Below are positions 1-29,922 of a DNA stretch of 40,847 bases, in pieces; positions within the stretch are counted from its first letter, which is position 1, and the number at the start of each line of letters is the position of its first letter. The notes beneath the pieces were generated by a model. That model worked only from the letters and a program-made list of their open reading frames with translations, was not told where the DNA came from and did not search any database. The DNA is from a virus: positions 1-40,847 of the IMG/VR virus record IMGVR_UViG_3300032116_000491; one strand, written 5' to 3'. Both the position numbers and the translations under genes were made by a program.

Positions 1-13
1 TGGAGTCAGGGCT

Positions 14-259
14 TTAGCGCATTAAAAGTGCAAATGCCAGCCGCCAATTGCGGCAAAAGGACTTAGGATCGGCGATCTCATCCTCTAATTGCACTAGCCC
101 TGATTGGGCCAGGGCGATGCGAAGGTGATGAACGTCGCCAGTGGCTTCTACCATCTTTACCGCATTGCCAATGCGGTAAATGTTTTTGCGGAATGTTGCG
201 AAATCTTCCATGTTCCGCTTTTTTTCCAAGATTTCTAAGATATTAAGCATATTGTTCAA
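14..259 (-). CDS. Small hypothetical early protein
   Basis: 81 residues, charged and probably helical, with no domain I recognise. The start shown is TTG, placed 7 nt after an AAGGAG; an in-frame ATG at 250 is the alternative and would remove three residues. The start overlaps the last codons of the upstream gene (243-647) by 17 nt, so the two are probably translationally coupled. It is the last complete reverse-strand gene before the left edge. Confidence 0.65.
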   Translation of the reverse strand: MNNMLNILEILEKKRNMEDFATFRKNIYRIGNAVKMVEATGDVHHLRIALAQSGLVQLEDEIADPKSFCRNWRLAFALLMR

Positions 260-647
260 TCATCAACTCCTTTTCATTTTGCTCAACTAACGCTTGAGCA
301 GCGTGGGCGCACTGACGCGCCCAGTTTTCGACTGTATTGAATACAGCCGATTCACCCCTATCGATAGGGGTGAAATGCACTCCGTTGATGAAGATCCCCC
401 CATCTTCATCCTCGATGACGGAAGGATTTTGCAACCCTTCCACATCGAACACGGGACTGCCGTAGCAGTCGTGCCGTGTGACGATTATTGGCTTACCTCG
501 GTGGTATCCAATCATCGTGTTTTCTTCCGCCAACTCGCCAGATGACCAGAAGATGATGAAATCTTCATTTACCTGTTTGCAGTAGTGGGCGTAGTCCCCA
601 CCATTGCTTGAAAAACGATAGTCGCAGGGATATCTAAGAGTTAGCAT
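243..647 (-). CDS. Hypothetical early protein
   Basis: 134 residues from an ATG preceded at 5-6 nt by GGAG (ATGGAGAAAATATG). An in-frame GTG at 701 would add 18 residues but overlaps the upstream gene and has no ribosome site. The middle reads like a small beta-rich domain (GKPIIVTRHDCYG, then DGGIFINGVHFTPIDRGE). No family is recognised. The codons for FTPIDRGE lie in a perfect 24-bp DNA palindrome, described separately. Confidence 0.7.
   Translation of the reverse strand: MLTLRYPCDYRFSSNGGDYAHYCKQVNEDFIIFWSSGELAEENTMIGYHRGKPIIVTRHDCYGSPVFDVEGLQNPSVIEDEDGGIFINGVHFTPIDRGESAVFNTVENWARQCAHAAQALVEQNEKELMIEQYA
332..374. repeat. Two adjacent perfect palindromes inside a gene
   Basis: 332-346 is CTGTATT-G-AATACAG. 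351-374 is a perfect 24-bp palindrome whose half is TTCACCCCTATC. They lie four bases apart inside the coding sequence of 243-647. Either could be a protein-binding site or an RNA hairpin acting on the gene downstream (14-259). The sequence is certain; the function is inference. Confidence 0.7.
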
Positions 648-694
648 ATTTTCTCCATGTGTAGATGTATGTGTGGGGTGATGGATAGCGTCAT

Positions 695-883
695 CTACCA
701 CTTAGACCAGAATAGAACTGTTGCAAATGCAGATGAGATAAAAGACAAGCCAATTGATTGAGCATACTTTCCATTAGAAAACAGATATGCCCATAGAATA
801 ACTGCTGGAATAGCAAATACATACAACTCAGGAGAGCTAATGTATGCACTGTATGTAGCCATGTAATGATTAAAGAATGACAT
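695..883 (-). CDS. Small membrane protein, two predicted helices
   Basis: 62 residues from ATG 883. A GTG at 895 would add four residues but lacks a ribosome site. A hydrophobic stretch, LYVFAIPAVILWAYLF, is followed by a short polar loop (SNGKYAQS) and a second one, IGLSFISSAFATVLFW, which suggests a helical hairpin in the inner membrane. Size and topology would fit a holin, antiholin or superinfection-exclusion protein, but nothing here decides between them. A degenerate promoter-like element lies 39 nt upstream. Confidence 0.6.
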   Translation of the reverse strand: MSFFNHYMATYSAYISSPELYVFAIPAVILWAYLFSNGKYAQSIGLSFISSAFATVLFWSKW

Positions 884-911
884 AATAGAACTCACAAATA
901 GAATAGATAAC

Positions 912-930
912 TTATCCCATTGCGTAGCAG
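912..930 (-). promoter_or_regulatory. Degenerate reverse-strand promoter-like element
   Basis: The reverse strand reads GCTACGCAATGGGATAAG, a variant of the GACGCTACGCTATGGGG family, at the usual distance (39 nt) upstream of the ATG at 883. Confidence 0.4.
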
Positions 931-995
931 CAAAAGGATAATTATGTTGTTAACACAAACGGTAGCACTACTCAAGTGAGCGCTGAGAACTTTAG

Positions 996-1028
996 GATGC
1001 TTTGTCATAGAACTCAGGTAAAAGCATC
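996..1028 (-). other. Hairpin in leader region
   Basis: GATGCTTT (996-1003) pairs with AAAGCATC (1021-1028) around a 17-nt loop, in the 300-bp gene-free stretch 884-1186. No U-tract follows on either strand, so it is not a plain terminator. On the reverse strand an 11-codon ORF (MLLPEFYDKAS) starts in the stem and has AAGG upstream, so a leader peptide is possible but unproven. Confidence 0.35.
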
Positions 1029-1040
1029 AAAACCCTTGAG

Positions 1041-1060
1041 TTATCTAATAGCGTAGCGTC
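1041..1060 (-). promoter_or_regulatory. Reverse-strand promoter-like element, copy 1 of a local pair
   Basis: The reverse strand reads GGACGCTACGCTATTAGATA. The core GACGCTACGC is exact. It lies 168 nt upstream of the ATG at 883, farther than most copies. With the copy at 1092-1108 it forms an imperfect tandem of about 50 bp whose units also share CCTA.CTT....ACGTAGA. Confidence 0.5.
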
Positions 1061-1091
1061 CTACCTTCAAACGTAGACAGATAGGCTATTA

Positions 1092-1108
1092 CTTACTAGC
1101 GTAGCGTC
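1092..1108 (-). promoter_or_regulatory. Reverse-strand promoter-like element, copy 2 of a local pair
   Basis: The reverse strand reads GACGCTACGCTAGTAAG, an exact core. It lies just past the terminator of the 1187-1321 gene, so it could restart transcription of the downstream genes (883 to the left edge). Confidence 0.5.
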
Positions 1109-1133
1109 CTAACTTAGAACGTAGAGGACAAAG

Positions 1134-1184
1134 CAAAAAAAAGGCTGTATAGACTAGAGGATAACCCCCTAACCTATACAGCCT
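1134..1184 (-). terminator. Rho-independent terminator after 1187-1321
   Basis: An 11-bp perfect stem, AGGCTGTATAG (1142-1152) with CTATACAGCCT (1174-1184), is followed on the reverse strand by eight T residues (1134-1141). The gene stop at 1187 is three bases before the stem. The loop carries TTAGGGGGTTATCC, also found in similar form in the hairpin at 1402-1447. Confidence 0.85.
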
Positions 1185-1186
1185 AT

Positions 1187-1321
1187 CTAGCAATGTCTAT
1201 GGAAGTCTAACGGGTCAGCACCATTCAAAACTTCCTGAGCTTCATACTCCATTAAGTCTTGATATCTAGCCATTTCCCAACAATCAGAGAGCCACTGTTC
1301 TCTGTTAAACTGGAAGCACAT
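1187..1321 (-). CDS. Small acidic hypothetical protein
   Basis: 44 residues (MCFQFNREQWLSDCWEMARY...), family unknown. I chose ATG 1321 because TTTGGAG lies 6 nt upstream and a variant promoter-like element lies 33 nt upstream. The longer frame from TTG 1387 would run through that element and has no ribosome site. The gene is flanked by a hairpin upstream and a strong terminator downstream, so it is probably its own transcription unit or the tail of the polymerase unit. Confidence 0.6.
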   Translation of the reverse strand: MCFQFNREQWLSDCWEMARYQDLMEYEAQEVLNGADPLDFHRHC

Positions 1322-1350
1322 ATTTAACTCCAAACAAATATTATTATCAA

Positions 1351-1363
1351 ATAGCGAAGCGTC
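1351..1363 (-). promoter_or_regulatory. Variant reverse-strand promoter-like element
   Basis: The reverse strand reads GACGCTTCGCTAT: one change from the consensus core, 33 nt upstream of ATG 1321, the same spacing as the intact copies. This supports the short start of the 44-residue gene. Confidence 0.5.
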
Positions 1364-1401
1364 AAAGCCTAGTCCATCAAGGGACAAACTAGTAGATAAG
1401 A

Positions 1402-1447
1402 GAAGATGTAAGTACTCAAAGATAACTCCCTAAATACTTACATCTTC
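1402..1447 (-). terminator. Hairpin after the polymerase-like gene
   Basis: A 13-bp perfect stem, GAAGATGTAAGTA (1402-1414) with TACTTACATCTTC (1435-1447), stands 10 nt past the stop of the polymerase-like gene. The following reverse-strand bases are T-rich but broken (TCTCTTATCTACT), so termination may be partial. Its loop shares TTAGGGAGTTATC with the next terminator. Confidence 0.6.
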
Positions 1448-1457
1448 CGAGTCGCTC

Positions 1458-4307
1458 TTAAAAGTCAATGTCGATGATACGCATCATAAAGCCAGACTCA
1501 TAGACTTCCATATAGGTAAGTCCAGTTGGCTTGTCAATCTTCTGCTTACGGATAGCAGATAGTTCGACCTCATAGGTATCTGGCACTACATGAGTACCAA
1601 CGTAACCAATCACAATGCCACGCTTGACACTGATGACTGGAAACATCTCAAGAGTCTTGTTCTTCTCATGGAAGACTACGAACTCAGGAGATACCTCACA
1701 CACTGTCTTAAAAGACTCCTTAGTGAGTTTCTCCAACAGTTGAGTACGAGTTACTGCATCAATAGCGTGAGGGGATTTACCACCATGCTTAAATAACACA
1801 GTCTCTTTCTTAAGCAACAACTCAGGAGTGTTCTCAAGAATGCGCTGTGTGAACAGCATCCAAGGCTTGTTAGCTGTGGGAATGTACTCTTTCTTGTCTT
1901 GCCCAACCTCAATGAGACAGTCTTTGTTATAGGACAAATCCCAGAACGCACTGAACTGAGCATCGGTGAATGACTCACAACGCACTCTAGCATCGTCAAT
2001 GAGAGCCGATACCTTCTTAGTATCAGCATCACCTTCCTTGCATAGTGCATCAAAAGCTCTAAGTGAAGCCTTAAAGTCGATAGCCACTTGCTTATCATGG
2101 GCTGAGTAATCACCCCAGATACCACGAAGGTGAGTTAGAGGCTTCATACCATCTAACAACGCTGGCACTTCATGCAATCCATTGACATAGTTGATGCAAG
2201 CAGCAATAGTACCAACATCATGCTTGGGTTTAGCATTGTCACAAAACCCAGCCATCTTCCATGTGTTAAGCCCACGATGGATATAAGGCATAGACCTTAA
2301 ATCACTAGAGCGTTGGTCAGTCTGCCATGCTTGAAAGTACTCCATAGCACCATCAATGATAGACTTCAACTCATCAGGGTTCTGAGGTGCATACTTCTGA
2401 CAGTCAAGGTATAGTTGAGTAGCACCAGTCAATGTCGCAATAGACTCCAACCAAGAGTTGAATCCCTTAACACCACTAGCTTCTGTCGCTTGGCAATACA
2501 TAGAGGTAATGCCACTACAACCCATCTCGAAGGCGCTTTCATAGACTAAGCGAGTTAACTCACCCCATCCACGATTAACCTTGGACTTCTCCTTGATAAC
2601 AGGAGTAATTGGGCAATGTCTCTGAATCTTGACAAAGTGATTGATAGCTTCGAGATAGCCAACTTCATCCTTCCAGACTAGAGTACTATTCCTATCACCA
2701 TCAAAGTCCATAGTGCAGACCGATGCTGATTGATGGCTCATAAACTCGCAACCCGATCCAATACCATCAGGACGATGGACAAGAACGCCCAAGCATTGCT
2801 CGGCATGGTTCATGATAGGCGCTTTGCCCCTAACCACTAACAAGCCAATGTGTTGAGTTCCATTAGACTCAACCATACCAACAGCACCATGTGGTAGTGC
2901 CTTCTTGCCGTTGAACCACTTCCCATCCTTCCACTTAAGAACTCTTGCATCAGATGCACTGATTACATGGAGTGGAAGGGTATCATCAGGTAATGCAGTA
3001 CGAACTCTACCCTCAAAGCCCATGCCTAGAGCTAACTTCATCTTCCTCTTGCTAATGCTAGAGAGGATGCGTTGAATGATGGTTGGGTCTTTGAGCGCCC
3101 AACTTAGATGCTCACTAGTTGCTATGGAGTGCATAGCCTTGTAGAACCAGTCGTCACGGGACTGCTCCACTTCTTCACCATCTTCGTTCTCCTCAAACCA
3201 GATAACCTTAGAGTTGGCTTCTGCATTGAAGAACTTAGCCGCTTCTTGAATAGAAGAACCAGCAGTATTAAGGCGAGCCATCTGTTCTGCAATGTAAGGT
3301 TTGCGAACTTCCAGCACTGACTTACTCATGGAGCGAGCAAACTGAGAGCCAAATGCTGCCTTGCCATCCACAGCCTGCATGGTTGCTCCTAGCGTGATAG
3401 TCAATACACCATCAAGAGTTAACAAGTTAGGATAGCCCAACTTAAAGCATGATTTAGGGATTACCATGTGGTAATCCTCTGCAAGGCTAGGCTCTACCAC
3501 GAATGTTCCCTTAGCCATTGCAGGGCATTCACCCACCATTAGCCTGAATTGACAGCCTTGATTAGCGCTGTCAAGGAATGTCATGGGTTGTCCAGTCGTG
3601 CTGTTGAAGCCCGTGACTTTAGTGCTGAGATAGTTAGCCAAGCCTTGAGAGATTTTGATGTGACAGTCGCCCACACCAGCAACGGACTGACGGGTATCAT
3701 AATGGCGAATAGTCTCATCCTGCCAAGACGAGATAACCTCCCACTTGGGGCTGCCATCAGGGTTTGCGCCAACACACTGGCTGATAGAACCAGCGTGTAC
3801 CTGATAGTTATCAAACTCATCATCCACAATGAGAACCCGTAACTTGGCTGTAACAACAGCCTTGTTGGGAGTGAGTGGAAGCTGGTATCCCATCATTAGC
3901 TGCTCGTATGACTTGCTGGGATGACACATCAAACCTTTGTGTTGGTCATTACCTCTAAAGTATTCAATAAGACGAATGTCACTCGACAGCAACATAGAAG
4001 CAGAGGTCTTAGCACCACTAGTTGCTTGGAGAAGTGAGTAATGCACACCATCCAAGGTAATACCATTGTCAGCTAGAGATTGACTTGCAGAAGCAAGGAC
4101 TTCCATCTGTTGAGCAAGAAGTTCCTTGCCTTTATCGCCGTCCTTCCTTAGCTCTTTGGGCGCGATACCGCCCAACTCAAGAATGACAATAGAGGTTGGC
4201 GAAACCCCCAAGTTGACGCACACTTGCTCTAAGAGAGTCATTCGCAATGGAACTTCCATCGTGCGCTTAAACTGCCCGTCAATAAACTCGTACTTGGCTA
4301 CATTCAT
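1458..4307 (-). CDS. DFDGD-motif RNA polymerase-like protein
   Basis: 949 residues from ATG 4307, with TAAGGAG 9 nt upstream; GTG 4310 and TTG 4313 are in-frame alternatives. At about residues 492-538 the order VVRGKAPIMNHAEQ, then SHQSASVCTMDFDGDRN, parallels the beta-prime barrel of cellular RNA polymerase (RAPTLHR, then a His-Pro segment, then NADFDGDQM). In that family the three Asp of DFDGD bind the catalytic magnesium. A region near residues 255-290 (VGECPAMAKGTFVV) may be the partner barrel, but that is weaker. No palm/finger motifs of T7-type polymerases are seen. The family would be the two-barrel, single-chain polymerases (crAss-like phage, YonO, eukaryotic RNA-dependent polymerases). 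It has its own upstream element and lies in the early arm. The motif is certain; polymerase activity is inferred. Confidence 0.75.
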   Translation of the reverse strand: MNVAKYEFIDGQFKRTMEVPLRMTLLEQVCVNLGVSPTSIVILELGGIAPKELRKDGDKGKELLAQQMEVLASASQSLADNGITLDGVHYSLLQATSGAKTSASMLLSSDIRLIEYFRGNDQHKGLMCHPSKSYEQLMMGYQLPLTPNKAVVTAKLRVLIVDDEFDNYQVHAGSISQCVGANPDGSPKWEVISSWQDETIRHYDTRQSVAGVGDCHIKISQGLANYLSTKVTGFNSTTGQPMTFLDSANQGCQFRLMVGECPAMAKGTFVVEPSLAEDYHMVIPKSCFKLGYPNLLTLDGVLTITLGATMQAVDGKAAFGSQFARSMSKSVLEVRKPYIAEQMARLNTAGSSIQEAAKFFNAEANSKVIWFEENEDGEEVEQSRDDWFYKAMHSIATSEHLSWALKDPTIIQRILSSISKRKMKLALGMGFEGRVRTALPDDTLPLHVISASDARVLKWKDGKWFNGKKALPHGAVGMVESNGTQHIGLLVVRGKAPIMNHAEQCLGVLVHRPDGIGSGCEFMSHQSASVCTMDFDGDRNSTLVWKDEVGYLEAINHFVKIQRHCPITPVIKEKSKVNRGWGELTRLVYESAFEMGCSGITSMYCQATEASGVKGFNSWLESIATLTGATQLYLDCQKYAPQNPDELKSIIDGAMEYFQAWQTDQRSSDLRSMPYIHRGLNTWKMAGFCDNAKPKHDVGTIAACINYVNGLHEVPALLDGMKPLTHLRGIWGDYSAHDKQVAIDFKASLRAFDALCKEGDADTKKVSALIDDARVRCESFTDAQFSAFWDLSYNKDCLIEVGQDKKEYIPTANKPWMLFTQRILENTPELLLKKETVLFKHGGKSPHAIDAVTRTQLLEKLTKESFKTVCEVSPEFVVFHEKNKTLEMFPVISVKRGIVIGYVGTHVVPDTYEVELSAIRKQKIDKPTGLTYMEVYESGFMMRIIDIDF

Positions 4308-4351
4308 CACCAATATCTCCTTACTAGATATGAACTAAACATCAGAAGTCA

Positions 4352-4369
4352 CCCTCATAGCGTAGCGTC
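4352..4369 (-). promoter_or_regulatory. Reverse-strand promoter-like element before the polymerase-like gene
   Basis: The reverse strand reads GACGCTACGCTATGAGGG, 53 nt upstream of ATG 4307. Its end, CTATGAGGG, also forms a 9-bp inverted repeat with 4393-4401. The hairpin GCGT-TACC/GGTA-ACGC overlaps the core. It may be autoregulated if the polymerase-like protein reads these sites. Confidence 0.55.
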
Positions 4370-4434
4370 ATACCTTTCGGGTAACGCAGGGTCTATGAGG
4401 GAAGCAGTTTAGAGTCATGCTTAGGACTGCGGGA

Positions 4435-4659
4435 TTAATCACCGATATAGGAAGAAGAAGAAAATCTCGTGGCGTAAGGAATGTAGTTCCTAAAGTCACG
4501 ACTCTCTTTACGCAAAGCTAACTGATTAGCAGAAACTACAATCTTCTTCATCGTGGTAGTATTGATGTAAACTTGAGGTGCATTAGCTCTACGCTCAAGT
4601 TCTTGAATAAACTCAGGTGAGTATTGAACTGAACGAAATTGATTCCAATATGAATACAT
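4435..4659 (-). CDS. Hypothetical early protein
   Basis: 74 residues from ATG 4659, with TTTTGGAG 6 nt upstream. Basic and Tyr/Ser-rich (MYSYWNQFRSVQYSPEFIQELERR at the start; SSSSYIGD at the end). No family recognised. A degenerate promoter-like element lies about 40 nt upstream, and two palindromic operator-like sites lie about 120-170 nt upstream. Confidence 0.65.
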   Translation of the reverse strand: MYSYWNQFRSVQYSPEFIQELERRANAPQVYINTTTMKKIVVSANQLALRKESRDFRNYIPYATRFSSSSYIGD

Positions 4660-4690
4660 AGCAATCTCCAAAACTAAACAATTTACACAA

Positions 4691-4706
4691 TCATCAAAGC
4701 GTAGCT
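4691..4706 (-). promoter_or_regulatory. Degenerate reverse-strand promoter-like element
   Basis: The reverse strand reads AGCTACGCTTTGATGA, 40 nt upstream of ATG 4659. A comparable, weaker match (AACTTCGTTTTG) lies 40 nt upstream of ATG 5465. Confidence 0.35.
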
Positions 4707-4779
4707 AAGAAAGTTAAGTTACCTAGAACTAAGCAACTTAACCTTCATCATCGTCATCATTATCGTCATGACGCAAAGG

Positions 4780-4799
4780 ATTATACGAAAGCGTATAAT
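4780..4799. promoter_or_regulatory. Palindromic operator-like site 1
   Basis: ATTATACG-AAAG-CGTATAAT, a perfect 8+8 inverted repeat with a 4-nt spacer. Both strands read TATAAT. A second copy starts exactly 30 bp farther on and a third lies at 6325-6344 in the control region, so a dimeric regulator such as the XRE protein at 37870-38109 could bind here. Confidence 0.6.
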
Positions 4800-4809
4800 T
4801 GACAGCCTG

Positions 4810-4829
4810 ATTATACGAAGGTGTATAAT
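4810..4829. promoter_or_regulatory. Palindromic operator-like site 2
   Basis: ATTATACG-AAGG-TGTATAAT, one mismatch from a perfect inverted repeat. Spacing of 30 bp from site 1 (about three helical turns) would put both dimers on one face of the DNA. Confidence 0.55.
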
Positions 4830-4861
4830 GCAAGATTTGCATAGGGTCATGACTGCGAATA

Positions 4862-4911
4862 AGAAAAAAAAATGCATCAGACATCTAACTAAGGAGCTAG
4901 ACATCTGATGC
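4862..4911 (-). terminator. Rho-independent terminator after 4920-5465
   Basis: Stem GCATCAGA (4874-4881) with TCTGATGC (4904-4911), a two-base mismatch, then TCTA/TAGA. On the reverse strand a run of nine T follows at once. It starts 9 nt past the stop of the coiled-coil gene. Confidence 0.85.
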
Positions 4912-4919
4912 TGTGGTGG

Positions 4920-5465
4920 TTACGCTGCTTGCTGAGCTAGGTAAGCTTCGCGCACAGCTACGATATTGTGGATACCGAGATGACCTACGGTTGCACGGGC
5001 AAAGTCGTAATAGGACTGACGCTTCTCGCGGGGGAGAGCTTTGAATGCTGACCAGATGCGGCGGTCAGTATCGGTGACTTGAACTACGGGCTGGGACTCA
5101 AGTTCTGACGCAGGCACTTCTGGCTTAAGCGCTGGCTTCTTGGATTGTGCAGGAGGTGCTGTCTTAGACTGAGCCGCAACCTTCTGAGACAGCAATTTAA
5201 TACGTGCGGCTTGCGTCTTAATGACATCACGAGCATCGTCAAGAGCGTCAGCATCATCATTGGCTTCAGCAAGCTCATCGCTAAGGCGCTCAACCTCAGC
5301 TTCTAATTCGACAATGCGTTGAGCAGCTACATTCTGCTCATACATCATCACGCCAATTCTGCGGCGGTCATCCTCAGCATTGCGCTCCAACTGTGCAATA
5401 CGTTCTTGAGAGGCGAGGTATGCAGCATAAATGTCAGACTTGTTAGACTTAGCAGTAATAGACAT
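4920..5465 (-). CDS. Coiled-coil protein
   Basis: 181 residues from ATG 5465, with TTTGGAG 7 nt upstream. Residues about 15-95 have heptad-like spacing of Leu/Ile/Ala between charged residues, typical of a dimeric coiled coil. A Pro/Ala/Lys linker follows (about 100-120), then a C-terminal helical part with DRRIWSAFKALPREKRQSYYDFAR. No enzyme motif is seen. It has its own terminator. A DNA- or host-protein-binding role in early infection is possible but not shown. Confidence 0.75.
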   Translation of the reverse strand: MSITAKSNKSDIYAAYLASQERIAQLERNAEDDRRRIGVMMYEQNVAAQRIVELEAEVERLSDELAEANDDADALDDARDVIKTQAARIKLLSQKVAAQSKTAPPAQSKKPALKPEVPASELESQPVVQVTDTDRRIWSAFKALPREKRQSYYDFARATVGHLGIHNIVAVREAYLAQQAA

Positions 5466-5522
5466 GGTTAATCTCCAAATTAATAAAATACAATGATTAA
5501 CAAAACGAAGTTAAGAGAGTTA

Positions 5523-5549
5523 AGCCACTCATGCTTATCACAAGTGGCT
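5523..5549 (-). terminator. Weak hairpin after 5561-5887
   Basis: AGCCACT (5523-5529) pairs with AGTGGCT (5543-5549). The reverse-strand continuation TTAACTCTCTTAACTT is only moderately T-rich, so this may be a leaky terminator ahead of the coiled-coil gene. Confidence 0.45.
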
Positions 5550-5560
5550 GTCGAGATAGG

Positions 5561-5887
5561 CTAGAATTCTGAGAGTAAGCTGATTAACTCAGCCTTGCGG
5601 AGTGCGCTGTATCCTGTAAAGCCAGAAGCCTTGGCATAGGACTTGAGTTGCTTAACAGTCATAGAGTTAATATCGGGGTAAAGCTCAAACTCACTGATGG
5701 TAGTCACAATAGCGGGAGTTGTCATTGACTTAGCACAGTGGCTTGTGGTCATAGGTAGCGTAGCGTCAGACTCATCGGCAGTGTCTTGAGAGCAGAGATA
5801 CTCATGCGTATCAATGATGAGTGCAATAGAGGAGAAGATAACAACCAACTGAACGCAGAAACCAACAAGAGAGAATAAAGTAGACAT
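5561..5887 (-). CDS. Membrane-anchored protein with Rho_N/SAP-like domain
   Basis: 108 residues from ATG 5887, with TTTGGGA upstream. Residues 4-26 (LFSLVGFCVQLVVIFSSIALII) form one membrane helix or signal anchor. Residues about 72-108 read SMTVKQLKSYAKASGFTGYSALRKAELISLL, the pattern of the Rho N-terminal/SAP-like helical domain (two short helices, with K/R before the second), which usually binds nucleic acid. It is the first gene of the left arm. A core of the promoter-like element (5758-5767) lies inside the coding sequence and encodes DATLP, which suggests either insertion of the repeat or an internal promoter. Confidence 0.7.
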   Translation of the reverse strand: MSTLFSLVGFCVQLVVIFSSIALIIDTHEYLCSQDTADESDATLPMTTSHCAKSMTTPAIVTTISEFELYPDINSMTVKQLKSYAKASGFTGYSALRKAELISLLSEF

Positions 5888-5997
5888 AGGATTAATCCCA
5901 AATAAAGTATGCCTCCCACAGACCGAAGGTAAAAAAGTTAAGTCACTGTGCGGGATGGCTAGCCGCCCCCCGCAACGCCCCCTGCTCTAGGCTATAA

Positions 5998-6220
5998 CTA
6001 GTATCCCAGCGCCTTTAGGCAAGGAAATTCGTAGAAGACATATCTGTTGAGGAGCAGATACCCGTGCTGTGCTAGCATCTCAGCGCCTGAAAGGTAAGGA
6101 ATTCACACACGATACAACTGTTGAGGGCGATATACCTGTGCTGTGCTAGTAACTCAGAGCATGGAATGCAAGTCACTATGTGTCGGCAACTGTGTAGATA
6201 GGTGAGAGCTAACTGGTGTG
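5998..6220. repeat. Three imperfect 74-75 bp tandem repeats
   Basis: Units at 5998-6071, 6072-6145 and 6146-6220. Each opens with CTAG and a CAG-AGC/GCGC segment near base 10 and ends with a GTG. The first two end identically in GTGCTGTG and share CTGTTGAGG in the middle. A degenerate fourth unit begins at 6221, and part of the motif recurs at 6384-6400. They may be origin iterons or repeated binding sites. The length is tRNA-like, but no T-loop or acceptor stem is present. Confidence 0.65.
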
Positions 6221-6324
6221 CTAGAGCCTCTGCGTGCAGTGTGTATGTGCTACAAAGTAGTGCGATGTATGTGCCGATGTATGTGCCAATGTAACAACCG
6301 CACCCTCAACTAGTACAAATGAGT

Positions 6325-6344
6325 ATCATACGGAAACGTATAAT
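6325..6344. promoter_or_regulatory. Palindromic operator-like site 3 with -10 box
   Basis: ATCATACG-GAAA-CGTATAAT, one mismatch from the palindrome at 4780. Its right half contains TATAAT (6339-6344), immediately upstream of the first 34-bp repeat. It therefore looks like a forward -10 box overlapped by an operator. No clear -35 box is seen. Confidence 0.45.
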
Positions 6345-6375
6345 CAAGTAAGGGGGTGTCACGGGGTCTCCCCGT
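6342..6375 (+). repeat. 34-bp direct repeat, copy 1 (start of candidate RNA)
   Basis: Identical over 34 bp to 6706-6739. It begins AATCAAGTAAGGGGG and ends in the hairpin CACGGGG-TCT-CCCCGTG (6360-6376). Both copies follow a TATAAT- or TATAAA-like box, so the repeat is probably the transcribed start of two rightward transcripts. Confidence 0.75.
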
Positions 6376-6470
6376 GGTGTGATGAGCATCAGCGCGTGGA
6401 ACGAAAGACTACACTTGCGTAAGACGCGCTGGTCTTAGGGAGTGTCACGGAGTCTCCCCGTACCTTTTTT
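6348..6470 (+). ncRNA. Candidate structured small RNA
   Basis: From the -10 box at 6339-6344, transcription would yield about 120 nt with a 5' hairpin (CACGGGG-TCT-CCCCGTG), a central stem, CAGCGCGT (6390-6397) with ACGCGCTG (6424-6431), and a 3' terminator hairpin. The 5' and 3' hairpins are near copies (GTCACGG.GTCTCCCCGT). No ORF of note lies inside. Promoter, structure and terminator are each visible; expression is inferred. Confidence 0.45.
6445..6470 (+). terminator. Forward rho-independent terminator in control region
   Basis: ACGGAG-TCT-CCCCGT (one mismatch) is followed by ACC and six T. It ends the candidate small RNA and would separate promoter 1 from the late operon, leaving the second 34-bp repeat to drive the late genes. 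Confidence 0.6.
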
Positions 6471-6623
6471 GTTCTGCGGTTTAGGTTGTTGTGGGGTAGA
6501 GTATAACAGATAAACAAAAACCTGTATAAAGTACTTCCATTTAGTAAAAATATAAAGCCAGTACAGCCAAAAAGGAAGCTATATCAGAGCCGTAGGTAAG
6601 TTATAATGGATAGAACTACAGTA

Positions 6624-6680
6624 ATTAGAGAAGATAATGAATAGAACAGAGATTAGAGAAGACAATGAATAAGACAGAAG
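6624..6680. repeat. Two tandem 28-29 bp direct repeats
   Basis: Units at 6624-6651 and 6652-6680 share ATTAGAGAAGA.AATGAATA and then an ACAGA segment. They sit just upstream of the second promoter/hairpin repeat, as activator or initiator-binding sites might. Confidence 0.55.
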
Positions 6681-6700
6681 TAATTTGGTTTAAGCGAAAG

Positions 6701-6739
6701 TATAAAATCAAGTAAGGGGGTGTCACGGGGTCTCCCCGT
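6701..6739 (+). promoter_or_regulatory. 34-bp direct repeat, copy 2, with -10-like box
   Basis: TATAAA (6701-6706) leads into the second identical copy of the 34-bp repeat (6706-6739), with hairpin ACGGGG-TCT-CCCCGT. No terminator follows, so I take this as the leading candidate for the start of the late rightward transcript. The -35 region is not convincing. Confidence 0.4.
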
Positions 6740-6790
6740 CGTGGTTCAAATGGAATGGAAGAAAGAGTAAATAGAGCCTATCCAAAGAAT

Positions 6791-7061
6791 CTCACCTCTT
6801 CCGAGGCGCTGTTGAGCGCAGTAGATAAGTCTATCTCAAAACTCTTGCATCTACGATGCGCTGAAGTGTGGGGGATAGGGTCTAATATAGTGATATCGCC
6901 CCATTATTCCAGAGTATTTCAGGTATTAAGGGGCGCTGTTGTTGGTATAGACGTAGTATCTGCAAATACTCACCTCTTTCGAGGCACTGGTGTGAGGATA
7001 CAATGACCGTTGCTAGGATAATAGCGCTGATACTAAAACATTCACCTCTTCCGAGGCGCTG
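6791..7061 (+). repeat. Three copies of a 21-nt hairpin repeat
   Basis: CTCACCTCTTCCGAGGCGCTG at 6791-6811, with near copies at 6969-6989 and 7041-7061. Each folds as CCTC-TTCC/TTTC-GAGG. The segment GCGCTG recurs between them (near 6858, 6932 and 7024). Spacing is irregular (178 and 72 bp), so this is not a CRISPR array. In the late leader RNA they would be small tetraloop hairpins, perhaps protein-binding or antitermination sites. Confidence 0.55.
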
Positions 7062-7104
7062 TGTGGTAGACTCTTGATGTAAAGTTATCACCTGTGCGGG
7101 GTCG

Positions 7105-7123
7105 TACAGGGGTGTCCCCTGTA
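7105..7123 (+). promoter_or_regulatory. Hairpin abutting the start codon
   Basis: TACAGGGG-TGT-CCCCTGTA is a perfect 8-bp stem ending one base before ATG 7124. It has the same build as the G4-N3-C4 hairpins at 6360 and 6724. It could mask ribosome entry to the metallopeptidase gene, which has no separate Shine-Dalgarno sequence. Confidence 0.5.
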
Positions 7124-7663
7124 ATGAGTAGGATAGCGCGAGAGATACAGTTAATACGGACTCTTGATGATGTTGGTAAAGTCAACTATAGAGAAGCTAT
7201 GACTCAAGGAATGGCTAAGTATGCTGATAGGTATAGTGATGTTAACTCAAGGATGCTTGATGAGTTAGGGGTGAATATAGTTAAAGACTTGATACAATAT
7301 CCTAGCCAGTTGAGAATAGTTGAGAGTAGCCCTACGACTAGAGGGTTAGCATGGGACAAGAATGTGTGGCTGAAGGATGATTTACCTTATCAGCAAAAGA
7401 TACTTAATCATGAACTAGCGCATATAGGTTTCAATCATAGTGGGAGTGATTTGCCAACAGCACTTCAGGAAATACAAGCTGAAGGCACTAGCTATGGTAT
7501 AGGGCATCGGCTAGGAATACCTACTGATGTATTGGCAATGGCATCTGCTCCTGTATTGCATAGTAGAATGAAGCAGTATAGCCCTGAACAGATAGGCAAT
7601 ATGATAGAGATGAATAGATCGCCTATAAGTGAGATGGTGTCTAGATTTATGGGTAGTAGATAA
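7124..7663 (+). CDS. HELAH zinc metallopeptidase-like protein
   Basis: 179 residues from ATG 7124; a GTG at 7094 would add ten residues that form the hairpin. Residues about 92-125 read ILNHELAHIGFNHSG and then ALQEIQAEGTSYGIG: a HExxH zinc site with a downstream Glu-rich helix as third ligand, the arrangement of ArdC/ImmA-type minimal metallopeptidases. Those families act in anti-restriction or repressor cleavage, but similar domains also occur in phage virion proteins, and this gene heads the late operon. The zinc site is clear; the role is open. Confidence 0.65.
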   Translation: MSRIAREIQLIRTLDDVGKVNYREAMTQGMAKYADRYSDVNSRMLDELGVNIVKDLIQYPSQLRIVESSPTTRGLAWDKNVWLKDDLPYQQKILNHELAHIGFNHSGSDLPTALQEIQAEGTSYGIGHRLGIPTDVLAMASAPVLHSRMKQYSPEQIGNMIEMNRSPISEMVSRFMGSR

Positions 7664-7664
7664 G

Positions 7665-7844
7665 ATGGCAGGTCGGGCGGCACAACAAAGAAGAATGGCT
7701 AAGAGAAAGATAGAGGTATTGGAATCTTATCTAAGGGGAGATAGGACTACAGTACCTCTACTTTCGAGTATGGGTTTGAGGGAAGTCAATGAGCAAATGG
7801 TTAGGATTAAGTTAGCTCAACTTAATCAGAGAATACTACCTTAG
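7665..7844 (+). CDS. Small basic hypothetical protein
   Basis: 59 residues from ATG 7665, one base after the previous stop. Arg/Lys-rich N-terminus (MAGRAAQQRRMAKRKIEV), otherwise helical. Its stop overlaps the stop of the convergent gene 7841-8053 by four bases. No family recognised. Confidence 0.55.
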   Translation: MAGRAAQQRRMAKRKIEVLESYLRGDRTTVPLLSSMGLREVNEQMVRIKLAQLNQRILP

Positions 7845-8053
7845 ACCCAGCCAATGATTAAAACAGATTCTACTTTGTCAGTACCTCTGTTCTCCCATCG
7901 TTGAAAACGATGGTCAACATATATACTGTCCTTATTGACAATATCTAGGTTAGGACTTGCCCATTGTTCTTGCCAATCAGCAAGGGCTACTGGTACATCG
8001 CCATGTTGTTCTAAATGTTTAGTTAGTTCTGCAATGAGTTCAGAGATTTTCAT
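7841..8053 (-). CDS. Small conserved phage-type protein
   Basis: 70 residues starting MKISELIAELTKHLEQHGDVPVAL, the pattern of a widespread group of small phage proteins (start, ELI helix, then a short beta strand after a Gly turn). The three MTVNE genes at 17070-17723 resemble it. It starts 3 nt after the stop of 8057-8866, so the two form one reverse-strand island inside the late operon. Confidence 0.65.
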   Translation of the reverse strand: MKISELIAELTKHLEQHGDVPVALADWQEQWASPNLDIVNKDSIYVDHRFQRWENRGTDKVESVLIIGWV

Positions 8054-8056
8054 AGT

Positions 8057-8866
8057 TTATGACGCGCTGTATGGATTGTAGGGTTGTGAACGAGTAGGAT
8101 AAGGGGCTTTTGGGACTACAGTGTTCATTTGTTGTGCAAAATGATTTGCTTCTTCAGCGCTCATTTGCTGTAGTTTAGCCATTTGATCTTCAGCCAAACT
8201 ACTTGATTGATAGCTGGATTGGGCGTTGATAGGCTTAGGAGCTAATGCAGAACACAATTGGGCTAGAGTTACCATAGATGCGTTCTTTCCTTGCATGGAA
8301 GACATGACAAGGGATTGTAGTTCAGGCGATCCAATACGCTTGAGTAGTTCGTAGTAGAAAGGCATAAGGTCGTTCTCACGTTCTACCAGTTCGTTGAGGA
8401 GGGCTGAGTCATCCCATTCGTGGAGAGAGCGATGTTTGTGGTTTGGTTCTGAGGACATAGATGCTGCTTTTTCAATAGTAAGGCAAATAGCTGTATTGGT
8501 ATTAGAGATTGCGGTAATCATGTCGGCTAGAGCGTCGAGACGAATGTTGGCTAGGTCAACTTTAGCAATAGCAACTTTGATGCTTGATAGCAATAAACCA
8601 TCTTGCTCAGGGTCGTTGACTAAATATGCACCTTTAAACCCAGTGCTTACGTTTTGGTATTGCTCTTGCATGAACTCATTGTATTTGTCAGCAAATGGTT
8701 TGGGGAGTACGGATGCTCCAATACTATCAACATGGTCGCCTAAAATTGGGAGAGGTTTATCAATAGTAGGGTCAGCAATTGAATCTAGGTTTTCGAGATG
8801 TAGTTCTTCACCTTTAGGCATATTAGATGCTGCATTGGCAAGTGCTAAGTCTAGTGCGTTTGTCAT
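8057..8866 (-). CDS. Hypothetical protein of reverse island 1
   Basis: 269 residues from ATG 8866. Mostly helical, acidic in the middle, with a Gln/Ser/Pro-rich C-terminus (SYQSSSLAEDQMAKLQQMSAEEANHFAQQ). No motif recognised. No clear ribosome site, but an intact promoter-like element lies 39 nt upstream. Its length is unusual among the reverse islands, which otherwise hold genes below 130 codons apart from 19950-20708. Confidence 0.7.
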   Translation of the reverse strand: MTNALDLALANAASNMPKGEELHLENLDSIADPTIDKPLPILGDHVDSIGASVLPKPFADKYNEFMQEQYQNVSTGFKGAYLVNDPEQDGLLLSSIKVAIAKVDLANIRLDALADMITAISNTNTAICLTIEKAASMSSEPNHKHRSLHEWDDSALLNELVERENDLMPFYYELLKRIGSPELQSLVMSSMQGKNASMVTLAQLCSALAPKPINAQSSYQSSSLAEDQMAKLQQMSAEEANHFAQQMNTVVPKAPYPTRSQPYNPYSAS

Positions 8867-8897
8867 AGAAGTTTAGAGATATACTTAGTTTATTCTT

Positions 8898-8914
8898 CCC
8901 CATAGCGTAGCGTC
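8898..8914 (-). promoter_or_regulatory. Reverse-strand promoter-like element
   Basis: The reverse strand reads GACGCTACGCTATGGGG, the best form of the family, 39 nt upstream of ATG 8866. The forward gene on the other side starts 8 nt away and has no ribosome site of its own. Confidence 0.6.
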
Positions 8915-8921
8915 TTTTTAT

Positions 8922-9338
8922 ATGAATACTCAAGATAGTCAAGGTAATGGACTGATAGGTGGTGGCATTGGATTAGGGTTAGGAGGTGCGGGAGCTTACT
9001 TTGGTAGGAACGCTGTAGAGGGCTTTGCTTTAAACAGATTCTCTAATGCAGATAAGTACGCTAAAGAGTTTGATGCATATGAAAATGCTTATGTTGACTC
9101 TAGGCAAGATGTAGCTAGTGCGGCAGCTAAAGCAAAAAGAGAGGGCATCTCATTTAGCGACAAGCAACACCCTAGGTATACAGAGATGGAAGCTGCTAGG
9201 GCAAGAAGGAACGCTATTTATGACAAAATGAACAATGCCGCCCAAAGAGCAATACCTTACGCTAATGCTGCTAAGTTACTTTATATGGCAGGACTCCCAA
9301 TTACTGCGTCACTCTTAGGTTCTACTTTAACTGATTAA
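8922..9338 (+). CDS. Glycine-rich virion protein candidate
   Basis: 138 residues. Residues 9-28 (GNGLIGGGIGLGLGGAGAYF) form a glycine-zipper membrane segment. A charged helical middle and a second hydrophobic patch near the end (AKLLYMAGLPITASLLG) follow. It is the first of a run of glycine-zipper proteins. I infer an internal or ejected virion protein from position and composition; there is no family match. Confidence 0.6.
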   Translation: MNTQDSQGNGLIGGGIGLGLGGAGAYFGRNAVEGFALNRFSNADKYAKEFDAYENAYVDSRQDVASAAAKAKREGISFSDKQHPRYTEMEAARARRNAIYDKMNNAAQRAIPYANAAKLLYMAGLPITASLLGSTLTD

Positions 9339-9342
9339 AACT

Positions 9343-10551
9343 ATGGCAACTCCCAACCGTACAGCTTCAATACTAGATGACCTGATAGATGGGTTTAAGA
9401 GTGACTTTAATACAGCGCGATTAGATAGGAAAGCTGCTTATGAGAACTTAGGTAAGAGTGAAGGTAGAACTGCTGCTCAGAACATAGGAGGCTTTGCGGG
9501 TAGGGTAGCGTCTGATGTTATAGGAGATGAGACTAGAAATACCTATTGGCGATACAACCATCCTTTGGCAGTATCGTCATTTGCTGGTAGTGATGCACTA
9601 AAGGTGACTGGTATGCCTGTGGGTTATCAAGCTTTGGGTGGTGCTGCTTTAGCATTAGGTGTTATGCCTATAGCATCGGGTAATTTAGATATAAGTAACC
9701 TAGGAGAGTTTGGTAGACCTAAAGGATATCAGGCTCTATTTGCTGACCCTACTGATAAGACTAAGACTACTAATCCATTGGGCGAGTTTGCTGGTAGGTA
9801 CTTCATTGGTAGGAAAGGTAATATCTTGCCTTATGAGGAGCTAGTCAAAGAAAGACCTGACGTTACACCTGAGAAGTATGCTGCTGCTGTTCAGAGTAGT
9901 GGGTTCATGAGTAAAGACTTCTTTGGATTACAAGATGACCCTACTAAGTCAATAGCACTTGGATTAGGTGCGGGTGCTTTACTTGGGGCTTATAGTCGTA
10001 GAGGTAAGTACTCAAGGGGCGCTGACGGTAAGATTAAGGTAGAGCCTAGGGTAGTAACTGATCCTGAGAACATACCTATATCTAAGTGGACTGATGAGAA
10101 ACAACCTGTAGCTGCTGATATTGAGGCTATAGGTAGGTTCTGGGTTGATTCGCCTAAAAGGGTTGAGATGGGTAGACCTGAGGACTTAGTAGCTGGTGCG
10201 CTCAAAGGGGGTGCTATAGGGGGGCTTGTAGGTGCTGTAGTTCCTAGCCTAGCCGAGTTAGGCGCTATTAAAACACAAAAGAGTTTAAGTGGTGAAGATT
10301 CGATAAGCCTCTTAGGATATGAAGTACCTATGAGTGCAGCATTATTAACTACTGGGGCTGGTGTTGGTCTTAACTATTGGGCTAGAAAACACTTTAAGCC
10401 TAATGACTTTAATACTGAAGATGTTGAAGCTGCCATTGATCAATTCCAAACTAAGAGGCATGACACTCAAGATTCGGTTAAAGGGCTTAATGTCAGGTAC
10501 AACCCAAATACCAAAGGATGGGATTATGTTGATACGCAATCCTTTAAGTAA
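9343..10551 (+). CDS. Glycine-rich multi-segment membrane-active protein
   Basis: 402 residues. Glycine/alanine hydrophobic stretches occur at about 100-116 (LGGAALALGVMPIASG), 203-218 (SIALGLGAGALLGAYS), 283-303 (LKGGAIGGLVGAVVPSLAEL) and 330-345 (MSAALLTTGAGVGLNY), separated by charged loops. This fits a protein that inserts into or spans the host envelope during DNA ejection. No enzymatic motif is seen. It starts 5 nt after the previous stop. Confidence 0.65.
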   Translation: MATPNRTASILDDLIDGFKSDFNTARLDRKAAYENLGKSEGRTAAQNIGGFAGRVASDVIGDETRNTYWRYNHPLAVSSFAGSDALKVTGMPVGYQALGGAALALGVMPIASGNLDISNLGEFGRPKGYQALFADPTDKTKTTNPLGEFAGRYFIGRKGNILPYEELVKERPDVTPEKYAAAVQSSGFMSKDFFGLQDDPTKSIALGLGAGALLGAYSRRGKYSRGADGKIKVEPRVVTDPENIPISKWTDEKQPVAADIEAIGRFWVDSPKRVEMGRPEDLVAGALKGGAIGGLVGAVVPSLAELGAIKTQKSLSGEDSISLLGYEVPMSAALLTTGAGVGLNYWARKHFKPNDFNTEDVEAAIDQFQTKRHDTQDSVKGLNVRYNPNTKGWDYVDTQSFK

Positions 10552-10589
10552 TACATAGTATGATTAAAGCAAAGACAAGGTATTAACTT

Positions 10590-10976
10590 ATGATGCAAGG
10601 AATAAGAGATAGGTGGGATGCATTACCTGTCTACGCACAGTACGGTATCCCTGCTGTTGGTGTAGCTGGACTAGGGTTAGGAGCTATGGCATTGATGGGT
10701 AATCCACAACAACCAGCCATTCAAGCTACTCAAGCAACGGGTCAAGCTAATGCTAATGAGATGGCTATGGTTGGCGATAACGTTAACTTAGCTTTGAGGA
10801 GACAAGTGTATGGCGACCCTTTAAGTGACATGGAAGCTTTACAACAAGCAGCTAAGTTATCAGGGAATCTCTATAAATTCCCTGAGAAGAAAGAGAAGGC
10901 TATACGTGATGCTGAGATTGAAGGTCAACTGATGGCACTTCAAGCTGAAGCTTTGAGACAACAATATCTTAACTAA
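10590..10976 (+). CDS. Glycine-zipper protein
   Basis: 128 residues. AAGG lies nine bases upstream. Residues about 14-37 (VYAQYGIPAVGVAGLGLGAM) form a glycine-zipper helix; the rest is helical and Gln/Glu-rich, ending QALQAEAL-type. The YAQYG..AVG opening recurs in the next genes, which points to duplication. Confidence 0.6.
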   Translation: MMQGIRDRWDALPVYAQYGIPAVGVAGLGLGAMALMGNPQQPAIQATQATGQANANEMAMVGDNVNLALRRQVYGDPLSDMEALQQAAKLSGNLYKFPEKKEKAIRDAEIEGQLMALQAEALRQQYLN

Positions 10977-10979
10977 GAC

Positions 10980-11453
10980 ATGAATCCTATTCGTATTGAC
11001 CCTACTGGGTTAAAGAATGTAATCCCCCAGTTTATTGATAATCCCTACACTCAGCTAGGTATTAACTATGGATTAGGTGCTGGTATTGGTGCTATTGGAC
11101 AAGCTGGCTACAATGCTGTTACTGGTACTAACAATGCTAATCCTTTAATTACTGGATTACAAATGGCTCCTCTCCTTGGAGGGCAAGGCGTATCTCGTAT
11201 CATCAACACTGATGCTCTTAATCAACTAAGGGCTAGAAATGAATACGTCAAGATGTTAGAAAGTGGTAGTGAAGCATCACTATATAGTGGTGTACTTGGC
11301 AATGTTGGCAACGCTATCACTGGTGGTAAAGATATTGACACTAACATGATTGGCTCTGTGGGATACTACGGTCAAGCTATGCCACTAGCTAAGAAGATAT
11401 GGGCTGATGTATTCCCTGTGACTGCTGCTAAAGAAAGAATTATTATTGAGTAG
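10980..11453 (+). CDS. Glycine-zipper protein
   Basis: 157 residues. Residues about 23-45 (YTQLGINYGLGAGIGAIGQA) match the neighbours' Y-Q-x-Gly-YGLGAG pattern. A short hydrophobic patch (PLITGLQMAPLLGGQG) follows. Spaced 3 nt from the gene before. Inferred to be a member of a duplicated virion family. Confidence 0.6.
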   Translation: MNPIRIDPTGLKNVIPQFIDNPYTQLGINYGLGAGIGAIGQAGYNAVTGTNNANPLITGLQMAPLLGGQGVSRIINTDALNQLRARNEYVKMLESGSEASLYSGVLGNVGNAITGGKDIDTNMIGSVGYYGQAMPLAKKIWADVFPVTAAKERIIIE

Positions 11454-11461
11454 GTAAAACA

Positions 11462-12406
11462 ATGAATCCAATGAGTCTCGCAAAACGCTACCTTGCTGGC
11501 GTAGGTGACAATCAGTATGCGCAAGAAGCTCTTGACTACGGACTAGGCGCTCTAGGTGTTGGCGGTCTAACTGCTGTAGGCAATTTAGGGGATGGTGCTG
11601 ACCAGAATGTATTGCTACAGGGGGTGTTAAGCGCTCCTTTAGCAGCTAATCTTCTAAGACAAGGTAGGAGTTTTGCTGGTCAACAATACATTGATAGAAC
11701 AGGAGCTAGTACAGCTAGAGGCGTGTATGAAGGTTTGAATGAAGCAGAGATGAATCAGAAGTTCCTAAACCGTTTTAAAGCTGCTGCTGTTCAAATAGCT
11801 AATCAAGGCTATGCAGAAAGACAATTGCAAAATCCTTATATGCAAGCTGCATTAGCTGGTAGTGCTGCTGCTACTGTTGGCGGTTTGTCAGGTCGTGTAT
11901 TTGATAATGATGCTACTGCTACATCTGTTGGGCTAGCAGCGTTGGGCGGTTTTGCACCTATCGCATACTCAATGTTGAGGGGTAGAAATGCTGACGTAGC
12001 TAACAGCGCTAAAGCTGTATACAATATTCCAGAAAACTCTACAGGTAGATATCGTACTGACGAATATCATGGTGTTCCTTCTGGCTACCCTAGAGCAAGT
12101 GCTAATCCTGATAACACGTATCAAGCTAATAGACCCGATCCAACAACCCCTTTTCGTGTAGTCAATGTATCGACTGAACCAGTAGCTCGCCCTTCAGTGA
12201 TGGGTGCTTTACCCTATCAGCGTGGTGGTGATTTAGCTGTGCGCGACCCTAACTTGCCTACTACAAGTAGAGTTGTAGTGCCGCCTTTGACGATAAACGA
12301 GTTAGCCTTAAATACTACTAGAGGTAGAGGATGGAATGTCGGCAAAGAGTTCCCGTTAGAAGCAGGGCTGGCTGGATTATATGCAAACTCTCCTAGGATG
12401 CGTTAA
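11462..12406 (+). CDS. Glycine-zipper protein
   Basis: 314 residues; AGG is 7 nt before the ATG. Hydrophobic Gly/Ala segments lie at about 24-45 (ALDYGLGALGVGGLTAVGNL), 128-143 (AALAGSAAATVGGLSG) and 152-170 (VGLAALGGFAPIAYSML). The C-terminal 130 residues are polar and Pro/Asn/Arg-rich. The opening (NQYAQEALDYGLGALG) parallels the previous protein. Confidence 0.6.
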   Translation: MNPMSLAKRYLAGVGDNQYAQEALDYGLGALGVGGLTAVGNLGDGADQNVLLQGVLSAPLAANLLRQGRSFAGQQYIDRTGASTARGVYEGLNEAEMNQKFLNRFKAAAVQIANQGYAERQLQNPYMQAALAGSAAATVGGLSGRVFDNDATATSVGLAALGGFAPIAYSMLRGRNADVANSAKAVYNIPENSTGRYRTDEYHGVPSGYPRASANPDNTYQANRPDPTTPFRVVNVSTEPVARPSVMGALPYQRGGDLAVRDPNLPTTSRVVVPPLTINELALNTTRGRGWNVGKEFPLEAGLAGLYANSPRMR

Positions 12407-12408
12407 AC

Positions 12409-15423: not shown

Positions 15424-15425
15424 CT

Positions 15426-16001: not shown

Positions 16002-16003
16002 CC

Positions 16004-29906: not shown

Positions 29907-29922
29907 CCCCTAGCGTAGCGTC
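29907..29922 (-). promoter_or_regulatory. Reverse-strand promoter-like element
   Basis: The reverse strand reads GACGCTACGCTAGGGG and then ATAATATC, 32 nt before ATG 29881. It heads the largest embedded reverse island (seven genes). Confidence 0.6.

Follow-up and report, generated by a model that had tools for sequence, protein, structure and literature searches.

A probable one-chain RNA polymerase gene and its DFDGD motif

The stretch analyzed here (the window) is the whole of virus record IMGVR_UViG_3300032116_000491, an uncultured phage contig of 40,847 bases. Its minus strand carries at 1458–4313 a gene whose product, P0001, is with high probability a one-chain two-barrel RNA polymerase, as judged from the open reading frame (ORF), its homologues, and the predicted fold, and a promoter-like motif recurs on the same strand. 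Three start codons are available for this gene, TTG at 4313 (951 aa), GTG at 4310, and ATG at 4307 (949 aa); residue numbers refer to the 951-aa form unless stated otherwise, and a mass of about 105 kDa can be estimated from its length. The plus-strand reading of 1458–4307 was rejected, as it contains many stops and the open frame lies on the minus strand, to which the coordinates of all P0001 features refer. The metal-binding motif DFDGD occupies 2694–2708 (residues 536–540), and its placement at residues 534–538 by the first-pass annotation is exact for the 949-aa form starting with ATG 4307. The catalytic-barrel-like context described around it is also present (RGKAPIMNHAEQC...HQSASVCTMDFDGD). 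Since this context is preserved in P0002, a relative with 80% identity encoded on contig L002, and the DxDGD column is common to all 28 rows of the family alignment, the resemblance is more than chance.

Homologues and family alignment

In IMG/VR, P0001 matched only the same phage (contig L001) and the single relative on L002. Viral scans with the queries P0001, A1, A2, and A5 also returned only contigs of the window phage and L002, while the first scan of genome contigs with A1 found no relative. A tblastn search with the P0001 core at E ≤ 10 gave weak matches (best E 2), and those listed were all lysin, endolysin, or tail genes. When plasmids were searched by tblastn with P0001, five records were detected, all of them cyanobacterial (E 8e-4 to 0.3), the sole match below 1e-3 being that of Anabaena. 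Four of the five plasmid proteins could be aligned with P0001 over their full length, whereas the annotation of the Dolichospermum plasmid protein covers only a 457-aa piece, in which DxDGD is missing. A genome scan using the four proteins aligned in full revealed 35 loci, all titled cyanobacteria, and one viral contig (L062), and the family profile matched 36 of 386 cyanobacterial genomes. Some cyanobacterial proteins of 1,100–2,400 aa (G279, G308, G377, and others) match this profile in part, which suggests that two-barrel enzymes could form a larger set. In Pseudanabaena biceps O153, several copies or fragments of the polymerase gene were seen across two plasmids (L039, L040, L047, and L060).

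The family alignment (A5) consists of 28 rows, from which L040 (coordinates and length identical to those of L039), nine partial loci (L053–L061), and the plasmid proteins L021, L022, L024, and L025 were excluded. Apart from P0002 (80%), the rows share 18–21% identity with P0001. Q255, F256, R257, K268, G269, T270, S288, K291, P499, D536, D538, G539, and D540, among others, are invariant in 28/28 rows. The two lysines, K268 and K291, are 23 residues apart in P0001 and 23–30 across the family, and the distance from lysine to aspartate is 245 in P0001 and 206–245 across the family. In the tree, for which only a midpoint root is available, P0001 and P0002 are set apart on a long branch, with a Nostocales/Oscillatoriales-type group and a Pseudanabaena-type group next to it.

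A search for the M-DFDGD-[R/S] pattern gave nine stretches, of which two belong to this family, those of L004 and L007 looked beta-prime-like, and the others appeared unrelated by eye. The sequence MDFDGDR was also seen at 3136–3155 of L003, a 49-kb viral contig, near the C-terminal part of a large ORF (1,079 codons from a stop to the end of the locus) that could not be aligned by eye to the P0001 family. An NCBIfam search gave nothing meaningful, and a PDB profile search using A5 gave no match.

Two double-psi barrels in the predicted fold

The invariant residues fall into motifs that have counterparts in QDE-1. The QFR...AKGT motif (residues 255–270; 3504–3551) includes Q255 and K268, the counterparts of Q736 and K743, and the SCFK motif (residues 288–291; 3441–3452) includes K291, the counterpart of K767. 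According to the literature used for this and the later comparisons (PMC10770324, PMC5467207, PMC7598289, PMC1750930, PMC7824862, PMC2950127), Q736, K743, and K767 of QDE-1 are invariant in the first barrel and the aspartates of 1007–1011 lie in the second one. The spacing computed from these residue numbers is 24 between the lysines and 240 between lysine and aspartate, compared with 23 and 245 in P0001. Residues 633–640 (2394–2417), with Q633, D637, and K640 invariant in the family alignment, possibly represent the bridge-helix region.

The Pfam model RdRP (PF05183, the QDE-1 family) matched 12 of the 28 members at E ≤ 1 (best 7.1e-6), and its curated cut-off was passed by two of them, L041 and L044. 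Matches with positions were obtained for 8 of 20 members, and they start just before DxDGD or span it. P0001 itself had no match to PF05183, and a search of the window with this model was likewise negative; of 14 control genomes, only that of B. subtilis, which hosts SPbeta/YonO, was positive, and this match was below the cut-off.

The AlphaFold model generated from the 28-row alignment was of moderate quality (predicted local distance difference test, pLDDT, 51.2; predicted template modeling score, pTM, 0.54), while an earlier model from only two sequences had a pLDDT of 29. Between residues 221 and 560, the block averages were mostly 50–87. In a Foldseek search of the PDB, all 13 matches at E ≤ 0.001 were one-chain two-barrel polymerases, namely RDR2, QDE-1, phi14:2 gp66, P74-26 gp62, P23-45 gp96, and P23-45-type gp64, with maize RDR2 (3.5e-12) and QDE-1 (5.8e-12) at the top, and the fold matches covered residues 1–837 of the model. 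The VIA-align matches were led by maize RDR2 (7w82; Z 11.6, root-mean-square deviation (rmsd) 6.9, 576 aligned residues), QDE-1 (2j7n; Z 9.9, rmsd 8.9, 600 aligned), and the gp64-type structure 8f72 (Z 9.1, rmsd 5.5, 449 aligned), with single-barrel rows ranking lower.

Based on structure matches and the conserved Gln and Lys residues, the N-proximal double-psi barrel (DPBB-B, beta-like) can be placed approximately at residues ~152–311 (3381–3860); the matches begin at model residues 152–156, and one row, 7p61_G, covers 155–311. The C-proximal barrel (DPBB-A, beta-prime-like) corresponds to residues ~425–561 (2631–3041), as indicated by matches to the Rpb1 barrel and to designed double-psi barrels. 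When segment 425–567 of the model, which contains DFDGD, was compared alone, it matched residues ~320–620 of Rpb1 and designed double-psi barrels with Z 5.5–6.0, a level weak by itself. The paired double-psi barrels proposed by the first-pass annotation were thus found in the predicted fold, with matches over most of the chain, DFDGD lies inside one of them, and the first barrel in the chain contains invariant lysines (K268 and K291). P0001 very likely has polymerase activity, and its template is likely DNA.

A strand-specific promoter-like motif

The motif reads TAGCGTAGCGTC on the plus strand and GACGCTACGCTA on the minus strand. Allowing at most one mismatch, 16 sites were found in the window, where 0.09 would be expected, and 16/16 were on one strand, as were the sites of L002, 8/8 on the matching strand. 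Similarly, GCGTAGCG has 14 copies on one strand and none on the other. A genome-wide reverse-strand motif that also precedes the polymerase gene had been claimed from the first inspection, and one of the 16 sites indeed lies there, at 4358–4369 (minus strand), 44–50 nt upstream of the possible start codons, and is kept in L002 with one mismatch. It is surrounded in the leader by a hairpin-forming stretch (4345–4410, minus strand) with the 9-bp arms CCCTCATAG/CTATGAGGG, for which RNA folding gave −24.1 kcal/mol (z −4.9); the L002 counterpart of this hairpin is weaker (z −1.9). Further minus-strand sites detected by the motif scan are those at 8903–8914, 36 nt before the ATG of the minus gene 8057–8866, at 29911–29922, in a gap between divergent genes and 29 nt upstream of the ATG that opens the minus ORF 29663–29881, and at 40677–40688, 28 nt before the ATG ORF that heads the right-hand minus cluster.

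For the tests of site placement, the site at 9501, which is inside a coding sequence, was left out. In the minus direction, 13 of the 15 non-coding sites are followed within 10–56 nt by an ATG ORF of at least 38 aa, compared with 16.5% of random positions; of the two exceptions, one (1097) is a tandem copy and the other (35461) precedes an ORF of 34 aa. As these cut-offs (38 aa, 10–56 nt) were picked after the sites had been seen, the P value of the test is a guide only. In the plus direction, starts were found at 10–56 nt for 4/15 sites, which equals the background, and the motif was therefore rejected as a plus-strand promoter. The flanking columns downstream of the motif, which had not been used in site selection, contain G in 13/15 and A in 13/15 sites. 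Considering the ORF placement in the two directions, we concluded that the motif marks minus-strand gene starts across the window, including those of islands between plus-strand structural genes.

Exact copies of the motif number nine in the 40.8-kb window, two in the L002 record, and none in the Synechococcus phage S-EIV1. As each of seven whole cyanobacterial genomes (5.6–9.1 Mb) contains only 0–2 exact copies, a host repeat was rejected as its source; the motif is phage-specific. Among 79 loci, the exact motif was found only in contigs of the window phage and L002. Repeated 11-mers in the loci of five relatives included nothing comparable, and the top repeats of L079, with 17–18 copies each, are different. 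A more degenerate form of this motif, GCTACGCTTTG-like on the minus strand, was seen before three further minus ORFs, at 4695–4722, 5501–5528, and 5919–5946 of the window.

Neighboring genes

Upstream of the polymerase gene lies a gene encoding a Rho_N domain (5561–5887, minus strand; E 4e-6). Its alternative start, ATG 5752, is located 3 nt past a motif site, and its use would keep the Rho_N domain and lose the N-terminal hydrophobic stretch. This stretch was recognized by eye on the Rho_N proteins of the window and of two annotated Pseudanabaena plasmids. In L002, a Rho_N gene is also found upstream of the polymerase gene (E 1.1e-5). A Rho_N model, in which the window copy was included, detected the gene in 20 of the 44 loci searched; after subtraction of the model members (window, L024, and L025) and the identical L001, what remains is L002 together with 15 genome loci of the Pseudanabaena type, where the gene precedes that of the polymerase. 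In the other, Nostocales-type group, the polymerase gene is followed by one of HU type (13/44 loci match, two of which are model members), with the exception of L037, where the HU-type gene is upstream and on the opposite strand. Between the Rho_N and polymerase genes, the window encodes a 181-aa coiled-coil protein (4920–5465, minus strand), which has a homologue in L002 (35% over 124 aa); the Pseudanabaena loci do not share this gene.

The phage, its relatives, and its host

The second contig, L001, is identical to the window over positions 1–14313 and extends 906 bases further left. None of the 30-mers in this extension recurs in the window. Consequently, the window is a genome fragment, and the lack of separate beta-type genes, noted in the first-pass annotation, was confirmed for the fragment only. 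PF00623 had no match in the window, and PF00562 had none in the window or the L002 record, both records being fragments, while the controls were positive in 14/14 cases. PF00940 (T7-type single-subunit RNA polymerase) also gave no match, but none of the control genomes was positive either. No gene for sigma-70 region 2 was found in the window or the L002 record, whereas 11/14 controls were positive.

The terminase, portal, and major capsid protein of the window are related to those of S-EIV1 (KJ410740), with identities of 34.8%, 31.2%, and 36.4%, respectively. In contrast, S-EIV1 is 79 kb long, has no DxDGD protein among its ORFs of at least 40 aa, and lacks the motif. The nearest capsid protein found is encoded at 711951–713129 of Kovacikia minuta plasmid pA (46.8% identity to that of the window), and a relative of the capsid protein occurred in 1 of 291 cyanobacterial genomes. 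Given the relatedness of capsid-side genes to S-EIV1 and to the K. minuta plasmid, the window phage likely has a cyanobacterial host. Plasmid pA is 1.2 Mb in size and may carry a prophage or phage-plasmid of the same lineage.

Two other regions of the window deserve mention. The 8922–16450 region encodes a series of glycine/alanine-rich, partly hydrophobic proteins, one of which has a 37% counterpart in S-EIV1, and which are possibly virion or ejection proteins. The 5998–7064 region between the two gene arms is non-coding and repeat-rich. It contains a 74-nt unit duplicated in tandem, a repeat around GGGGTGTCACGGGGTCTCCCCGT present three times, and another around TCACCTCTTCCGAGGCGCTG present several times, and may be an origin or a late control region.

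Proposed mechanism and alternative explanations

In the mechanism that we propose, a single polypeptide would suffice for transcription: the N-proximal beta-like barrel would supply Q255, K268, and K291, and the catalytic metal would be bound by D536, D538, and D540 of the C-proximal beta-prime-like barrel. As a DNA-dependent enzyme, P0001 would transcribe the minus-strand genes of the phage, its own gene included, from the 12-nt GACGCTACGCTA. Past the motif lies a run of purines ([TG]GGG[AG]), and the RNA may start in or near this run, approximately 20–50 nt before each start codon. If P0001 reads the motif, the first round of transcription of its own gene would have to come from the host enzyme or from a virion-carried polymerase. 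The layout of the genes suggests an early or middle role. We regard this promoter model, taken as a whole, as equally likely to be right or wrong, and the odds that the motif is read by P0001 rather than by the host enzyme are about even.

Several observations weigh against the mechanism or parts of it. P0001 alone had no significant match in Pfam, PHROGs, PDB sequences, or 50,697 phage records, and hhalign comparison of the family with single YonO, gp64, and gp66 sequences gave no signal. The structural model has only moderate confidence, and residues 559–700 and 830–951 are poorly predicted, so the clamp, the bridge helix, and the trigger loop could not be placed in it. The nearest solved folds are those of RNA-dependent enzymes. 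Divergent motif sites are also close to plus-strand starts (9/15 at 0–56 nt), because many sites lie in gaps before plus-strand genes, and the distribution of the motif marks minus-strand starts without telling which protein reads it. Finally, TACGCT within the motif fits the bare −10 element TANNNT, making host use of the motif possible.

In the alternative that survives best, P0001 is still a two-barrel polymerase, yet it is the host enzyme or a regulator that uses the motif, and P0001 reads other genes, for example the plus-strand structural ones. That the polymerase gene itself carries the motif would be explained most simply if the host enzyme reads it first, and other promoters could sit in the repeat-rich non-coding part at 5.9–7.1 kb. 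Such an opposite division of labor would have a precedent in YonO, which is reported to transcribe the late genes of SPbeta. However, the seven cyanobacterial genomes contain the motif not at all or at about the chance level, S-EIV1 lacks it, and it is far longer and better conserved than a −10 box. Moreover, a sigma-70-like scan of window positions 1–9400 detected 14 sites, compared with 17.6 expected, and none of them precedes the polymerase gene. We consider this alternative a serious one, which nevertheless falls short of being probable.

The enzyme might also copy RNA or prime DNA synthesis instead of transcribing the phage genome, as fold and Pfam comparisons place eukaryotic RNA-dependent RNA polymerases nearest and a VapE/PriCT-2 primase-like gene is found not far off on the L002 contig. 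An RNA-dependent enzyme is not known to be of much use to a dsDNA phage, which weakens this explanation. YonO and the P23-45 enzymes, relatives of P0001 by fold or profile, are reported to be DNA-dependent, and QDE-1 also uses DNA (PMC2950127); we find this explanation improbable. It is hardly credible that P0001 is some protein other than a polymerase, with DFDGD present by chance: this would agree with the lack of sequence matches to P0001 alone, but it is contradicted by the catalytic set invariant in 28/28 rows, by the Pfam RdRP matches of the relatives, and by the E ≤ 0.001 fold matches, all of which are two-barrel polymerases.

Returning to the mechanism preferred here, a wider view can be put forward tentatively, in which a QDE-1-type polypeptide, the one-strand 12-nt element, and a Rho_N partner may form a sigma-free transcription system in a lineage of cyanophages and cyanobacterial plasmids. 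If true, the polymerases of RNA silencing would have in it a simple counterpart from bacteria.

Comparison with known two-barrel polymerases

One-chain two-barrel polymerases, built on the two barrels found at the core of every cellular RNA polymerase, are known already from YonO, crAss-like phages, P23-45, and eukaryotes. Few of them have been studied, although they bear on the origin of the cellular enzyme, and promoter recognition by them is poorly known. The literature search found nothing on this phage lineage or the promoter-like element, key papers on the enzyme family being outside its reach. Since the element is short, phage-specific, and strand-marked and the enzyme is compact, the promoter question can be tested directly in vitro.

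The first-pass annotation had likened P0001 to the enzymes of crAss-like phages and YonO. The one-chain two-barrel character was upheld, but the nearest folds are QDE-1 and RDR2, which are as near as the crAss-like or P23-45 enzymes or nearer, and the similarity to YonO is weak. Profile comparison with a seven-member YonO set depended on the settings, giving a probability of 15.9% (P 0.0016) or 80.4% (P 1.3e-5); the alignment pairs DFDGD with DNDGD, and three of the seven YonO-set rows have no visible DxDGD. The YonO-like proteins (SPbeta YonO, Perkons) resemble P0001 in their length, in being phage-borne, and in DxDGD. Furthermore, an HU gene follows the polymerase gene in Perkons and the DNA-binding gene yonN follows yonO in SPbeta, an arrangement comparable to that of the Nostocales-type relatives. 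Unlike these, the window gene has a Rho_N neighbor, an HU gene was not found beside it, and no pairwise similarity was found between P0001 and the YonO-like proteins. YonO-like proteins of cyanobacteria, which may include the present plasmid proteins, are mentioned in the YonO paper (PMC5467207), and the literature used here leaves the promoter sequence of YonO open.

The crAss-like phi14:2 gp66 shares the one-chain two-barrel fold (Foldseek E 4.8e-5; Z 7.5, rmsd 6.3, 503 aligned), but it is a virion-packaged protein of 2180 aa that gives no sequence signal with the P0001 family. The fold is also shared by the non-virion (gp64 nvRNAP) and virion (gp96 vRNAP) RNA polymerases of Thermus phage P23-45 (E 4e-4 to 7e-4), the former of which is reported to use a GC-rich promoter. 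These differ from P0001 in that gp64 has only 616 aa and gp96 is part of a fusion with a tail protein, and neither has a significant sequence match. The closest resemblance is to QDE-1 and plant RDR2, where the beta-like barrel likewise comes first in the single chain and the Gln, the two Lys, and DxDGD are similarly spaced, although these are eukaryotic, cell-encoded RNA-silencing enzymes with 9–12% identity to P0001 in the fold alignments. Taken together, we rate P0001 as a new, deep branch of the known one-chain two-barrel polymerases, found in a phage and having many relatives in cyanobacterial plasmids and genomes, its own neighbors, and its own promoter-like element as a candidate promoter.

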